Shown: positions 1 through 30,413 of the stretch, piece by piece
Layout of the letters: the number at the start of each line of letters is the position of its first letter
Position numbering within the stretch: position 1 is the stretch's first letter
Notes under the pieces: model-generated
What the model was told of the DNA's origin: nothing
Seen by the model: the letters and a program-made list of their open reading frames with translations, nothing else
The model's database searches: none
Virus record (IMG/VR): IMGVR_UViG_3300006904_000012
Coordinates: 1-38,647 of that record
Direction: 5' to 3' (one strand)
From: a virus
DNA: 38,647 nt
Position numbers and translations under genes: made by a program

Positions 1-2
1 GA

Positions 3-1181
3 ACGCCGGCGATCGCCGCCACGATCGCCGTCAGCCCGAGCGGCATCGCGTCGGCGGAGGCGTTCGGCAGCGCCACGATCGCGACGAACATCAACGTGAG
101 TCCGAGCGGCATCGCATCAGCGGAGGCGTTCGGCAGCGCCACGATCGCCGCGTCGATCGCCGTCGACCTGAGCGGGCAGGGAATCCCATCGTCCGAGGCG
201 TTCGGCTCTCCGACGATCGCGGCGACCATCGCGATCGACCTCGACGCCCAGGGCATCCCGAGCGCGGAGGCCTTCGGCTCGCCGGACCTGCTGGTCGGCG
301 CGGTGACGATCGACCTCGACGGCCAGGGGATCGCCTCGGCCGAGGCCTTCGGCGCGCCCGAGGTCCAGCCCGGAGCGGTCGCGATCGACCTCGACGCCCA
401 GGGCATCCCGTCGGCCGAGGCGTTCGGATCTCCCACGGTCACGTTCGCCACCATCGTCGACCTCGACGGCCAGGGCATCGCGTCGGAGGAGGCCTTCGGA
501 TCTCCGGACCTGCTCGTCGGCGCGGTCGTGATCGACCTCGACGGCCAGGGCATCGCCAGCCTCGAGGCCTTCGGGACGCCGGTAGTGGTCGTCTCCGGGG
601 CTCAGGTCGTCGACCTCGACGGCCAGGGGATCGCGAGCGCGGAGGCGTTCGGCACGCCGCTGCTCTCCACCCTCGGCCTGCAAGTCGTCCAGCCGCACGG
701 GATCGCGAGCGCGGAGGCGTTCGGGTATCCCTTCATCAGAGGAGGGTTCATCGCCGTGACCCTGAAGAAGAAGGTCCACGACGCGCTGTGCCTCGCCGCG
801 CAGCTCGGCACGTTCATCGAGGCCACCTACGACTCCGACGCCTGCGAGCTAGTCCAGGGACTCCAGGTCCAGCCCGCCTCGGTCGAGGTCAACGAGCTGA
901 CCGCCGCCTACCAGACGCTCCACCGCCTCGGGCGCAAGTACGTGCTCGACCCGACGTCGTGGCAGTGGCTCCTGATCCTGAAGTTCAACGAGGAGGTCAT
1001 CTGCGAGCCGTTCGTTCGCGCCCTCCTCGAGGACCCCATCTGCATCCCGCGCGACGAGAACGAGGACCGCCAGGTCACCGTCAAGCTCGTCGACACCCAG
1101 TACGAGCACCCTCCGCGGGAGGGTGCGTCGAACGGGACCCACGCTCGCTTCCGTTTCCAGGCCGAGCTGAGCCCCAGATAA
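3..1181 (+). CDS. repeat-bearing tail-associated structural protein (5' partial)
   Basis: The frame is open to the left edge, so the true start lies outside the window; the GTG at 96 is only an internal candidate. About 240 residues consist of ten copies of a 9-residue motif, GI(A/P)SxEAFG, spaced 22-25 residues apart and joined by linkers such as VVIDLDGQ. The last ~150 residues are a different, non-repetitive domain (containing YVLDPTSWQW and CIPRDENEDRQ). The gene sits directly before the major tail tube gene, in the place usual for a head-tail joining or tail-terminator protein, so the C-terminal domain may do that job while the repeats form an extended surface decoration. This is inference from position; I do not recognise the C-terminal family. 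Confidence 0.75.
   Translation, partial: TPAIAATIAVSPSGIASAEAFGSATIATNINVSPSGIASAEAFGSATIAASIAVDLSGQGIPSSEAFGSPTIAATIAIDLDAQGIPSAEAFGSPDLLVGAVTIDLDGQGIASAEAFGAPEVQPGAVAIDLDAQGIPSAEAFGSPTVTFATIVDLDGQGIASEEAFGSPDLLVGAVVIDLDGQGIASLEAFGTPVVVVSGAQVVDLDGQGIASAEAFGTPLLSTLGLQVVQPHGIASAEAFGYPFIRGGFIAVTLKKKVHDALCLAAQLGTFIEATYDSDACELVQGLQVQPASVEVNELTAAYQTLHRLGRKYVLDPTSWQWLLILKFNEEVICEPFVRALLEDPICIPRDENEDRQVTVKLVDTQYEHPPREGASNGTHARFRFQAELSPR
36..735 (+). repeat. ten-copy coding tandem repeat (EAFG motif)
   Basis: DNA-level repeats with a period of about 66-75 bp encode the motif GIASAEAFG and variants. The first two copies (about 36-80 and 108-152) are nearly identical at nucleotide level over about 45 bp; later copies have drifted but keep the amino-acid motif. 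Such an array could expand or contract by recombination, and it continues to the left edge of the window, so the full copy number is unknown. Confidence 0.85.
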
Positions 1182-21544: not shown

Positions 21545-21573
21545 TGGACAAAGGTTCGGTCGGCCGATATACT
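21545..21573 (+). promoter_or_regulatory. strong rightward early promoter
   Basis: TGGACA (21545-21550), 17 bp, TATACT (21568-21573): five of six matches to each sigma70 consensus box at the ideal spacing. The start would be near 21580, at the foot of a small hairpin (21581-21597, CGTGG/CCACG), about 46 nt before the first early gene. It is the best promoter match in this region. Confidence 0.75.
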
Positions 21574-24977: not shown

Positions 24978-25310
24978 TTGATACTGATACTCACGGGCGA
25001 GCCGATGGACTACTCGGAGGGACTCTCGGCGAGGGCCGAGGTCCTGCGCCGGCGGGCGCGGGAGATCGAGGAGCGCACGGCCCGGCTCAGCCAGGCCCGC
25101 GCGCTCGAGCTGGTCGCGGGGTCGGAGGTGTCGCCGGAGTTGCGGGCCGCGTTCCTCGCGCTCCGGCGCGACGCGCTCCTGCTCCAGCAGGCGAACTACC
25201 TCCTCTGCGCGGACGCGCTGGGGGAGCAGGTCGAGAAGGAGGACCGCGGGCGCGCCGGCCCCTTCGACGGCGTGGCGGTGCCCGACGGCGTTCCCCCGGG
25301 AGGACTGTAG
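24978..25310 (+). CDS. unknown helical protein
   Basis: TTG start with AGGA 7 nt upstream; an ATG at 25005 is an alternative. The 110 residues are mostly one long charged helix (RAEVLRRRAREIEERTARL, ELRAAFLALRRDALLLQQAN) with a Gly/Pro-rich end, suggesting a coiled-coil protein. First gene after the possible promoter at 24874. No family recognised. Confidence 0.5.
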   Translation: MILILTGEPMDYSEGLSARAEVLRRRAREIEERTARLSQARALELVAGSEVSPELRAAFLALRRDALLLQQANYLLCADALGEQVEKEDRGRAGPFDGVAVPDGVPPGGL

Positions 25311-25312
25311 GC

Positions 25313-25519
25313 GTGGATTCGCGAGCAGGACGCGCGACGATCGAGCAGAGGTTCAGGGTCGACACGATCGACGGGTCGTTCGAGGAGTTCTATCCCTGGA
25401 ACCTGGAGGAGGTCCGTCGGATCGCGGAGGAGGAGTCTCCCGTGCCCGGCTACATCCTGCACGTGGAGCCCCTCGGCGTGGTCCGAGTTCCTCGGCGCTA
25501 CCTGCGGGAAGGACTCTAG
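25313..25519 (+). CDS. unknown 68-residue acidic protein
   Basis: GTG with GGGAGGA about 10 nt upstream, two bases after the previous stop. The sequence has a strand-helix character: IEQRFRVDTIDGSFEEFYPW, then LEEVRRIAEEE and YILHVEPLGVVRVPR. It could be a small alpha/beta protein. It is directly followed by the GGDEF gene with the same 2-nt gap, so the two are probably co-translated; a regulatory partnership is possible but unproven. Confidence 0.55.
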   Translation: MDSRAGRATIEQRFRVDTIDGSFEEFYPWNLEEVRRIAEEESPVPGYILHVEPLGVVRVPRRYLREGL

Positions 25520-25521
25520 GC

Positions 25522-26097
25522 TTGGACTCTCCCGCCTGGTCCGACCTGACCGAGACGAAGTACGCGACGCTGCGCGAGCGGCTGGCGCGGCTCCCCGACC
25601 TGGAGCGCGAGGCCGAGGCGCGGGCGCGGGACGCGGAGGTGGACTCTCTCACGGGACTCTACAACCGGCGCGGACTAGACCGCCGGACGCGGCGCGACGG
25701 CCAGAGCTGGTTCGTCTTCGTCGACCTGGACGGGTTCAAGGCGGCGCAGGACGCGCACCCGCTCGGGCACGCCTACGGGGACGAGGTGCTGCGGGAGTTC
25801 GCGCACTTCCTCTCCGAGCAGACTCGGGGCTCGGACGTGACGCTCGCCCGCGAGGGCGGGGACGAGTTCGTCGTGCGCATCGACAGCCGGGCCGGGGCGC
25901 GCCGCGTGCGCGACCTGGTGCGCCGCTGGCGCTCGCGCGACGGCCGGGTGTCGGCGAGCGCCGGCCTCGGCGCGGACGTGGAGGCCGCGGACGCGGCGAT
26001 GTACCTGGACAAGGAGGAGAAGCGGGCGAGGACGCTGCCGACCTTCTCGGCGGCGTGGCTGCGCCTGCGTGAGATAGCGCAGAGGAGGATCCTGTGA
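25522..26097 (+). CDS. GGDEF-domain protein (diguanylate-cyclase-like)
   Basis: TTG start with GGGAAGGA upstream. After a ~38-residue helix, the GGDEF fold follows in order: DSLTGLYNRRGL (41-52), FVFVDLDGFK (64-73, metal-binding Asp68), LGHAYGDEVLREF (81-93), the signature GGDEF (112-116), and DAAMYLDKEEKR (157-168). An RGSD at 102-105 resembles the inhibitory RxxD site but lies one residue further from GGDEF than in WspR. The usual substrate-binding Asn of FKxxND is Gln76 here. Known members make cyclic di-GMP or related dinucleotides. No sensory domain is attached. It overlaps the next lipoprotein gene. Confidence 0.88.
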   Translation: MDSPAWSDLTETKYATLRERLARLPDLEREAEARARDAEVDSLTGLYNRRGLDRRTRRDGQSWFVFVDLDGFKAAQDAHPLGHAYGDEVLREFAHFLSEQTRGSDVTLAREGGDEFVVRIDSRAGARRVRDLVRRWRSRDGRVSASAGLGADVEAADAAMYLDKEEKRARTLPTFSAAWLRLREIAQRRIL

Positions 26098-26396
26098 CGA
26101 CCAGCAAGCGACTGAGCGTGTACGTGGGGATAATGTTCCTGGAGATGGCCCTGATCGCGGCGTGCTGCCTGGGGTGCGCCGGGCCGAGGGGGCTCGGGCG
26201 CCCGCCGCGCACGGAGGCCGAGGTGCCGCTGGCGTTCCCTACGGACCGGGTGGTCCGCGTCGCGGACAGGGACGGCAACGTCTCCCTGGTGGTGTACCTC
26301 CGGCCGCGACCCGCAGCCCCTAGGGGCGGGCTGCTGGTCTACAGGGTGAGGCCGGACGGCACGGTCGCCTGCGTCGACAGGGTGACCTCGAACTAG
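26094..26396 (+). CDS. small lipoprotein
   Basis: GTG overlapping the GGDEF stop (GTGA). The 100 residues begin with a basic start, a hydrophobic core (YVGIMFLEMALIAACCLGC) and a cysteine-rich cleavage region, so the mature protein is probably lipid-anchored. The remainder is a small beta-rich domain (RVVRVADRDGNVSLVVYLRP, GLLVYRVRPDG). Phage lipoproteins often block superinfection; translational coupling to a nucleotide-second-messenger enzyme is unusual. No family recognised. Confidence 0.65.
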   Translation: MTTSKRLSVYVGIMFLEMALIAACCLGCAGPRGLGRPPRTEAEVPLAFPTDRVVRVADRDGNVSLVVYLRPRPAAPRGGLLVYRVRPDGTVACVDRVTSN

Positions 26397-26425: not shown

Positions 26426-26453
26426 TTGACTTCCGGACGAGACGCTGTACACT
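26426..26453 (+). promoter_or_regulatory. rightward promoter
   Basis: TTGACT (26426-26431), 16 bp, TACACT (26448-26453). Transcription would start near 26460; AGGAGG (26465-26470) and the ATG at 26482 follow at once, giving a very short leader. Confidence 0.55.
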
Positions 26454-26481: not shown

Positions 26482-26799
26482 ATGTTCGGGATATTCGGCG
26501 GGATCGAGCGCTGGGTCCGGGAGCGACTGCTCCGCGGGACGTCTAGGGACGCGGCGCAGGTCGGCGCGATGGCTCAGGCCGGGCGCGGGATGAAGATGCC
26601 CCCGCGCGAGGTGCAGTCGGCCAGGCGGCCGACGCGCCGGGACGCGGTGCGCCTGACCTTCGACGAGTTCGTCGTCAAGCGCAAGCTCGGGCCGAGCCAC
26701 TTCACGCGGCGGCAGACGCCGAAGACGCGCGCGCGGCGCGTGGGAATGCTGACGCCAGCGGAGCGCTCGATCGCCAGGGCGCGAGGGTGGATCTGGTGA
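26482..26799 (+). CDS. unknown basic protein
   Basis: ATG with AGGAGG 11 nt upstream, just after a promoter. The 105 residues are strongly basic (ARRPTRRDAVRLTF, RRQTPKTRARRVG) with an amphipathic N-terminal helix (FGIFGGIERWVRERLL). It could bind nucleic acid or membranes. Its TGA overlaps the next ATG (TGATG). Unrecognised. Confidence 0.55.
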   Translation: MFGIFGGIERWVRERLLRGTSRDAAQVGAMAQAGRGMKMPPREVQSARRPTRRDAVRLTFDEFVVKRKLGPSHFTRRQTPKTRARRVGMLTPAERSIARARGWIW

Positions 26800-26909
26800 T
26801 GAGGCGCCGCAGGAGGGTCAACGGCCGCCTCGTGCCGCTGCGCGTGCGCGCCGGCTCGAAGGGCCGCAGGCGCAGGCTCGCCGCGGAGGCGCGCGGGAGG
26901 TGCGGGTGA
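26799..26909 (+). CDS. 36-residue arginine-rich peptide
   Basis: ATG sharing a base with the previous stop (TGATG). Fourteen of 36 residues are Arg (MRRRRRVNG, GSKGRRRRL), so it is probably disordered and binds nucleic acid. Overlaps on both sides support translation despite its size. Function unknown. Confidence 0.5.
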   Translation: MRRRRRVNGRLVPLRVRAGSKGRRRRLAAEARGRCG

Positions 26910-27457
26910 GCGCCCGCGTGCTCTTCGTGGGCGAGGCGCCGACGATCTCGAACGTCGGGTTCCCGCTCCACCCGGACTACTGCGACGCGGGACGCAGGCT
27001 GCTCGGGTACACCGGCTGGTCGCGCGAGGAGTTCCTGCGACTGGCCGACCGGACGAACCTGTTCGAGCACCCGCAGGAGCGGTGGGGGCCGGTGTCGGCC
27101 CGCGACGCGGCGACGACGATGGTGGTCGACGACTGGGCCAGGTACGAGCACGTGGTGCTGCTGGGGCGCAGGGTCGCGGACTCCTTCCGAGAGGTCGGCT
27201 CGGCGCCGTTCTTCCGCTGCGCGTTCTACGGCTGCGCGACCTCGGCCCGGAGCAGGGGGACGCGGGCCTACGTGTGCCCGCACCCCTCAGGCCGCAACCG
27301 CTGGTGGAACGACCAGAACAACAGGAGAGCAGCGCGCCGGTTCTTCAACCGGCTCGCGACGGACGTGTGGGAGCCGCCGCAGCAGAGCCGGCCGGTCACG
27401 GTCGGCCCCGCTATGCCGGCGGGCGGCGGCTCGCACACCACAGGAGATAAGCAGTGA
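26906..27457 (+). CDS. uracil-DNA glycosylase superfamily-like protein
   Basis: The start at 26906 is preferred over GTG 26900 because GGGAGG lies five bases before it and it overlaps the previous stop. The 183-residue product opens with VLFVGEAP (5-12), the motif-A strand and loop of family 4/5-like uracil glycosylases. It continues with CDAGRRLLGYTGWSREEF, has HVVLLGRRVADSFR (82-95) in the place of the conserved 'LG-x-x-A' helix, and ends with PHPSGRNRWWN (125-135), the motif-B His-Pro-Ser loop. The catalytic acidic residue of motif A is not obvious. It may excise damaged or modified bases or be an inactive relative. Confidence 0.7.
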   Translation: MSARVLFVGEAPTISNVGFPLHPDYCDAGRRLLGYTGWSREEFLRLADRTNLFEHPQERWGPVSARDAATTMVVDDWARYEHVVLLGRRVADSFREVGSAPFFRCAFYGCATSARSRGTRAYVCPHPSGRNRWWNDQNNRRAARRFFNRLATDVWEPPQQSRPVTVGPAMPAGGGSHTTGDKQ

Positions 27458-29437: not shown

Positions 29438-29841
29438 TGGACCTGACGACTACGGGCCGCTACGCGCGGCTGGGGGCGACTGCGATGGGCGAGCGGAGAT
29501 TGCCGAGGACCGAGGAGTCGATCGACGTGATCGTGAGGAGCGAGGAGGACGACTCGCTCTCCTCGTTCGACATACACAAGAACGCCGACGTGGTGTTCGA
29601 CTTGGGCGAAGACAAGTATCTGCGCGCCCACAAGATTCACGTGAGGATCGGTCGCGGCGCGGACGGGGCGCTGGGGCTCGAGGTCCGCAGCTCGCTCGGC
29701 GGCCTCACGGTCCGGGCGGAGGCCGGCAACCACGTGTACCTGAGCACCATGCGCGGCGACCTGATGCCGCCGCCCCAGGCCGAGCAGCCCGACGACTTCG
29801 ACGTGCGCGACGACGCCACGCCGTGCGGATCGGACGACTGA
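29437..29841 (+). CDS. unknown acidic protein
   Basis: ATG sharing a base with the previous TGA (TGATG), GGAGG upstream. The 134 residues include a beta-rich core (FDIHKNADVVFDLGEDKYLR, HKIHVRIGRGADG, GGLTVRAEAGNHVYLST) and an acidic, Pro-rich tail. The alternating-strand pattern suggests a small jelly-roll or OB-like fold. It overlaps the HD-domain gene. No family recognised. Confidence 0.55.
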   Translation: MDLTTTGRYARLGATAMGERRLPRTEESIDVIVRSEEDDSLSSFDIHKNADVVFDLGEDKYLRAHKIHVRIGRGADGALGLEVRSSLGGLTVRAEAGNHVYLSTMRGDLMPPPQAEQPDDFDVRDDATPCGSDD

Positions 29842-30413
29842 TGGAGCACCCCGCGAAGAAGCACGGCTACATCACGACGGTCAGCGGCCGGAAGTTCTTC
29901 TCGCTCGACTCGCACTGCAACTTCGAGCGCGAGGACGTCACGCACGCGCTGTCGATGATCTGCCGCTACCTCGGGCACGTCCGCGAGTTCTACTCCGTGG
30001 CCGAGCACTCGGTGCTGGTCTCGGTGCTGGCCGAGGCGGCCGGCGAGCCGCTGGTGGTGCAGCAGTGCGCGCTCCTGCACGACGCCCACGAGGCGTACTG
30101 CGGCGACTTCCCGAGCCCGTTCAAGATCGATCTTCCGGAGCACGAGGCCTGGGAGGCGAGGATCCAGGCCGCGGTGCGCGAGGACCTCGGGCTCCCGCCG
30201 GAGGACTCGTGGATCTGGCCGCGCGTGAAGGTCTACGACACCCGCGCGCTCCACCTGGAGGCGCACTACCTCCTGCCGGAGGGCGTGGGCTGGGTCGACC
30301 ACCGGGTCGCCCTCGACGCGCCCGCGATCGCGAAGGTCTGGGCGCACGACCCTCGCACCGCCCGCTTCGCCTTCAAGAAGCGCGCGAGCCAGCTCGGGCT
30401 CGAGGGCTTCTGA
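29841..30413 (+). CDS. HD-domain phosphohydrolase (YfbR-like)
   Basis: The ATG at 29841 overlaps the previous TGA (TGATG) and gives 190 residues; a GTG at 29823 is in frame but less likely. HD-domain metal ligands are visible: YSVAEHSVLV with His56, LLHDAHEAYCGDF with His80-Asp81, and downstream Asp89, followed by PSPFK. The SVAEHSVLV and HDAHEAYxGDxxxPxK patterns are those of the YfbR-like 5'-nucleotidases that act on deoxynucleoside monophosphates, also common in phages. It probably tunes nucleotide pools for phage DNA synthesis. It is the last gene before the replication operon. Confidence 0.85.
   Translation: MEHPAKKHGYITTVSGRKFFSLDSHCNFEREDVTHALSMICRYLGHVREFYSVAEHSVLVSVLAEAAGEPLVVQQCALLHDAHEAYCGDFPSPFKIDLPEHEAWEARIQAAVREDLGLPPEDSWIWPRVKVYDTRALHLEAHYLLPEGVGWVDHRVALDAPAIAKVWAHDPRTARFAFKKRASQLGLEGF

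Follow-up and report, generated by a model that had tools for sequence, protein, structure and literature searches.

What use would a phage have for a standalone GGDEF protein, and does that protein look like a working enzyme? The gene that raises the question lies on a viral contig of 38,647 bases, IMG/VR record IMGVR_UViG_3300006904_000012, the whole of which was analysed here and is called the window. Genes for helicase, exonuclease, tail and terminase proteins are found in the window, overlapping contigs add DNA polymerase, ligase and portal genes, and a capsid gene is also present across the contigs; the assignment of the GGDEF gene to a phage is, therefore, supported. Contig G001 shares 25,061 identical bases with the window, represents the same phage and extends it by 10.7 kb. 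Contig G002 (54,698 bases) is collinear with the window, the DNA identity being mostly 66-83%, and it wraps around its ends, which suggests a genome of about 55 kb. The capsid gene is approximately 30% similar to that of several siphophages, and no named phage matched at the DNA level. The phage looks virulent, because a search for tyrosine integrases, the control for which was positive in 14/14 reference genomes, revealed none in nine contigs, most of which may be incomplete.

Phage GGDEF genes are as uncommon as the original prediction had supposed: 37 of 50,697 named phage records gave a match (E<=0.01), and a pattern scan picked out 182 contigs among 2.9 million. Both counts are lower bounds, because relatives of the Pseudomonas phage YuA protein gp44 were missed by the named-record search and surfaced only in a separate one. 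Several records labelled Acinetobacter phage MD-2021a (CAKLQF/CAKLQH) encode the ordinary bacterial cyclases yedQ, yfiN and ycdT, and look like mislabelled bacterial contigs.

Table 1. Features of the GGDEF locus, in window coordinates
Feature	Position	Strand	Description
Sigma-70-like site TGGACA-17-TATACT	21545..21573	+	Likely start of the unit holding the GGDEF gene; consensus match only
Small helical-looking gene with C-terminal VPDxxP motif	24978..25310	+	From sequence and synteny
68-aa mildly acidic ORF	25313..25519	+	2-base gap to the GGDEF gene
Standalone GGDEF protein	25522..26097	+	191 aa, TTG start; N-terminal helix 11-37, compact GGDEF domain 38-168
Metal and base pocket	25723..25782	+	D68 (PleD D327), F72-K73, Q76 for Asn335, two-residue insertion, G86-D87 (D344)
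I-site-like R102..D105, six-residue spacer, R110-E-GGDEF	25825..25869	+	From the 11-member alignment
Putative lipoprotein, 100 aa	26094..26396	+	Signal helix, lipobox IAAC; GTGA overlap with the GGDEF gene
Sigma-70-like site TTGACT-16-TACACT	26426..26453	+	Opens the next unit, before the VKRKLG gene; consensus match only
Conserved gene with VKRKLG.S.FTR motif	26482..26799	+	Function not assigned; 3' of the GGDEF gene in seven phages

The protein belongs to the GGDEF family. It matched Pfam PF00990 at 62.8 bits, far beyond chance given a curated cut-off of 23.8, and its relatives also exceeded that cut-off. An AlphaFold2 model built from an alignment of 19 sequences (pLDDT 87) has a helix leading into a compact GGDEF fold. 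By VIA-align the model superimposed on PleD bound to GTP-alpha-S (2v0n) with a Z of 16.9 and 1.6 A over 128 residues, and on 4zmm with a Z of 17.8; the structures listed by that comparison were GGDEF-domain structures. The proposed modelling against PleD thus recovered the nucleotidyl cyclase fold with its GG[DE]EF hairpin and, together with the Pfam match and the retained catalytic residues, it bears out the claim of an intact signature, metal-binding Asp and fold. The description of a bare catalytic domain with no sensor was right about the sensor, which is absent, but not about bareness, as the predicted helix precedes the domain.

Residues D68, K73, D87, R110, D114, E115 and K164 align with conserved GGDEF active-site positions, among them the metal, base and phosphate ligands of the cyclase DgcR (D174, E217/E218, D191 and K289; PMC8041772). 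REGGDEF occupies residues 110-116 (25849-25869). The domain is shortened after this motif, with the terminal-motif lysine K164 retained. The base pocket between helices 1 and 2, which normally holds an Asn and an Asp, is altered: the window reads FKAAQD, confirming that the usual Asn is replaced, here by Gln76, and two residues are added at the same place rather than the one that had been reported before LGH (QD-AHPL-GH versus ND-xx-GH). The distance from RxxD to GGDEF is one residue longer than usual, as had been noted, at six rather than five.

These features define a group. At the DNA level, eight viral contigs, each encoding a small GGDEF protein, carried the Gln codon together with the insertion; no viral contig carried the Gln without the insertion. 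A pattern scan requiring neither feature yielded the 182 GGDEF-bearing contigs mentioned above, of which 80 were kept. The best 11 of those 80 carry both Gln and insertion, including three new to the set of eight; the remainder have Asn and no insertion, apart from two contigs (L096 and L122) in which the site was not parsed. The 11 sequences, the window protein among them, form one clade, supported at 100/97 in a tree of 83 sequences and at 100/98 in a tree of 80 sequences to which named phages had been added. All members are short, single-domain, sensorless ORFs of about 156-217 aa that have the Gln, the two-residue insertion and the six-residue spacer between I-site and GGDEF motif (11/11 in each case). 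Across the 11, D68, F72, K73, Q76, D77, H83, G86, D87, D105, R110 and GGDEF (including D114 and E115) are invariant, K164 is kept in ten, and R102 ceased to be invariant once the three later members were added.

The clade appears to be confined to phages, a description that applies to the samples searched: uncultivated phages, named phages and sampled bacterial genomes. FKxxQD did not occur in 200 Pseudomonadota genomes, 189 of which contained FKxxND (3,420 occurrences), and the Gln-plus-insertion pattern was absent from 296 Actinomycetota genomes. Three different queries found no clade member among the 50,697 named phage records. Recent acquisition of a host gene (a moron) was rejected as the main reading, since the clade is carried by phages and the nearest cellular sequences among the matches listed are 27-38% identical overall, with the signature in none of them; a bacterial source beyond those matches may exist. 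We found no description of the clade in the open-licence literature, and it has not previously been named.

Guanine binding may differ in these proteins, because the Asn is a Gln in every member and the loop is two residues longer; the contacting Asp (D87) is kept. The most interesting of the rival explanations starts here. The linked Gln and insertion could reshape the base pocket of an active cyclase so that its product is mixed or otherwise changed (cGAMP, c-di-AMP or a linear dinucleotide), perhaps to counter nucleotide-based defence, an outcome we regard as unlikely. Put more broadly, and with the same low expectation, the reshaped pocket could yield a signal other than plain cyclic-di-GMP, or cyclic-di-GMP made without product inhibition, that jams the immune or developmental nucleotide signalling of the host. 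Within the clade the two changes always co-occur, the altered position is the one at which Asn339 of the Hypr enzyme GacA contacts the sugar face of the base (PMC6456294), and in two members the neighbouring gene encodes a MazG-like pyrophosphohydrolase, with a P-loop kinase nearby as well in one of the two. However, the Watson-Crick-face Asp D87 is invariant, whereas a Ser at that position marks the Hypr enzymes that make mixed products; moreover, the amide is still present in Gln, for which the two added residues may simply provide space. Membership of the cGAMP-making Hypr group was rejected on the same grounds, that Ser is absent and D87 invariant in all 11 members.

Many GGDEF domains are catalytically dead. 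With both its base pocket and its I-site spacing altered, the phage protein might act as a sponge, holding GTP or cyclic-di-GMP but not converting it, or as a protein-protein interaction module. We consider this improbable, because sequences only 43% identical still have every catalytic acid, the lysine of the FK motif and GGDEF itself, none of which a dead enzyme would need.

The gene is under purifying selection: by a simple method, applied to GC-rich genes, dN/dS came to 0.43 for the window and G002 and to 0.20-0.24 for pairs of closer relatives, while the window and the more distant L040 gave 0.58, a value near the limit of the method. The neighbourhood of the gene is conserved. In seven phages the VKRKLG gene lies downstream of the GGDEF gene, which is in most cases preceded by a small gene with VPD..P at its end; equivalents of that small gene are found directly 5' in L037, L038, L042 and L047. 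Elsewhere the surroundings vary, with a ClpP-like gene 5' in L036 and L050 and MazG-like or P-loop-kinase-like genes 3' in L036, L040 and L050. Neither the VPDxxP gene nor the 68-aa ORF of the window matched a family in Pfam or PHROG. The latter had been described as a short acidic gene at a gap of 2 nt; the gap is as stated, and the acidity is only mild (approximately 13 acidic versus 10 basic residues). Away from the locus, window positions 1-730 gave many overlapping matches to a single stretch of G002, which suggests that the gene for the minor tail protein contains internal repeats. Elsewhere the window encodes a uracil-DNA-glycosylase-like protein (26900-27457) and an HD-type 5'-deoxynucleotidase-like protein (29823-30413), which may hint at an unusual nucleotide metabolism in this phage.

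The original prediction coupled the enzyme to the lipoprotein gene that follows it. The GTGA overlap between the end of the GGDEF gene and the lipoprotein start (26094) is confirmed, but the functional coupling is not upheld. A homologue of the lipoprotein was found only in G002, at 40% identity and with a dN/dS of about 1.1 on that alignment; its place is taken in L037, L038 and L047 by an unrelated small protein that looks membrane-anchored, and in L042 by none. As a conserved partner the lipoprotein, therefore, fails beyond G002, and we do not count it as a component of the device. Its model (pLDDT 75) matched no fold in the PDB, and a BamE-like fold suspected by eye found no support from Pfam or Foldseek. 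The replacing family (L037 2614-2961, L038, L047 6498-6812) comprises proteins of about 100 residues encoded directly 3' of the GGDEF gene, with one N-terminal membrane helix, a conserved RGG.D/EDLRxEDPEGFARLA region and no Pfam match.

A device in which the overlapping lipoprotein anchors the cyclase or receives its signal, in a layout like that of synthase-effector pairs such as Panoptes, is very improbable: the overlap in the window and the membrane-anchored-looking gene directly 3' in three relatives favour it, but the following genes are non-homologous between the two sets and missing from L042 and other contexts, the lipoprotein evolves fast, PADLOC gave no match, and in the Panoptes synthase OptS the GGDEF motif is all but absent (PMC12657218). 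The PADLOC result likewise led us to reject a defence-system synthase, and the intact motif to reject membership of the mCpol/OptS (Panoptes) group.

Promoter-like sites give some indication of when the gene might be expressed. A stretch of 7.5 kb contains two, compared with an expectation of 0.1 from shuffled sequence, and both have counterparts in G002: TTGCCA-17-TATACT in the syntenic place (L035 9163-9191) for the site upstream of the GGDEF gene, and TTGACT-16-TACAAT (L035 13701-13728) for the site that opens the next unit. Expression of the GGDEF gene is probably early, because the unit that contains it appears to be headed by a host-type promoter.

The reading that we favour, with reasonable though far from complete confidence, is a sensorless diguanylate cyclase, made early in infection, that overrides host cyclic-di-GMP signalling. 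Two copies would pair through the N-terminal helix, each binding one GTP at its GGDEF half-site, and the two GTP molecules would be joined to form cyclic-di-GMP. Because the protein has no input domain, it is probably active whenever it is made, and the shifted spacing of the I-site probably weakens inhibition by the product. During lytic growth, the resulting cyclic-di-GMP may override the host signalling that governs motility, envelope or development. Searches with working controls found no EAL or PilZ in the nine contigs, and neither a cyclic-di-GMP riboswitch nor a PilZ receptor was found in the phage.

In bacteria, the guanine-contacting Asn of GGDEF enzymes is nearly always present, and a phage clade that replaces it and has fixed an insertion in the same pocket represents a natural experiment on substrate recognition. 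If the proteins are active, lytic infection by these phages floods the cell with a second messenger, and the clade offers a minimal, sensorless enzyme with which to ask what a phage gains from host cyclic-dinucleotide signalling.

The phage protein shares its fold, its GGDEF hairpin and its leading helix with cyclases of the PleD, WspR and DgcR type, and it keeps their metal ligands, phosphate lysine and guanine-contacting Asp. It differs in several respects: an input domain is lacking, Gln replaces the guanine-contacting Asn, helices 1 and 2 are separated by two additional residues, the I-site spacer has six residues, and the C-terminal half is shortened. The Hypr GGDEF enzymes GacA and Bd0367 also have a changed base-pocket residue; in those enzymes the Asp has become Ser, whereas in the clade the Asp (D87) is kept and the Asn has changed (PMC6456294).

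Among phage-borne proteins, the nearest tree group includes the GGDEF domains of giant polyvalent proteins, with support of 98/85 in the first tree and 98/69 in the second, the latter making this link softer. Iyer et al. (2017) proposed that such domains interfere with host nucleotide responses (PMC5512222). Unlike the short single-domain ORFs of the clade, polyvalent proteins are 2,400-2,500 residues long, and the FK lysine is absent from those of L004 and L005, the GGDEF domains of which may, therefore, be altered or inactive. GGDEF domains within phage proteins of about 2,400-2,500 residues were seen in L004 (2853-10241, which also has the polyvalent-protein domain LPD22), L005 and L122. 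The annotated diguanylate cyclases of Bacillus phage SP-15 and phage G have the canonical Asn and spacing and fall outside the clade. A near-identical GGDEF protein of 315 residues with a DLNDLKITND site recurs on many viral contigs (many loci among L062-L087) and constitutes a separate, widespread phage or prophage group.

Small phage GGDEF genes as such are already known, for example YuA gp44 (PMC8471281). This 156-aa sensorless protein, from the Yuavirus and Vojvodinavirus group of the Mesyanzhinovviridae, is encoded beside an anti-restriction gene in a siphophage of roughly 59 kb, and its relatives were found in Pseudomonas and Bordetella phages. One phage of the gp44 group, Bordetella phage LK3, is described as temperate and its lysogens made more biofilm; the parts of that report drawn on here describe no test of the gene alone (PMC8471281). 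YuA gp44 and the window protein have a similar compact C-terminal part and match at a profile probability of 98%. The gp44 family differs in keeping the Asn, lacking the insertion and carrying SGDEF or AGDEF, and the two families form separate clades, each strongly supported.
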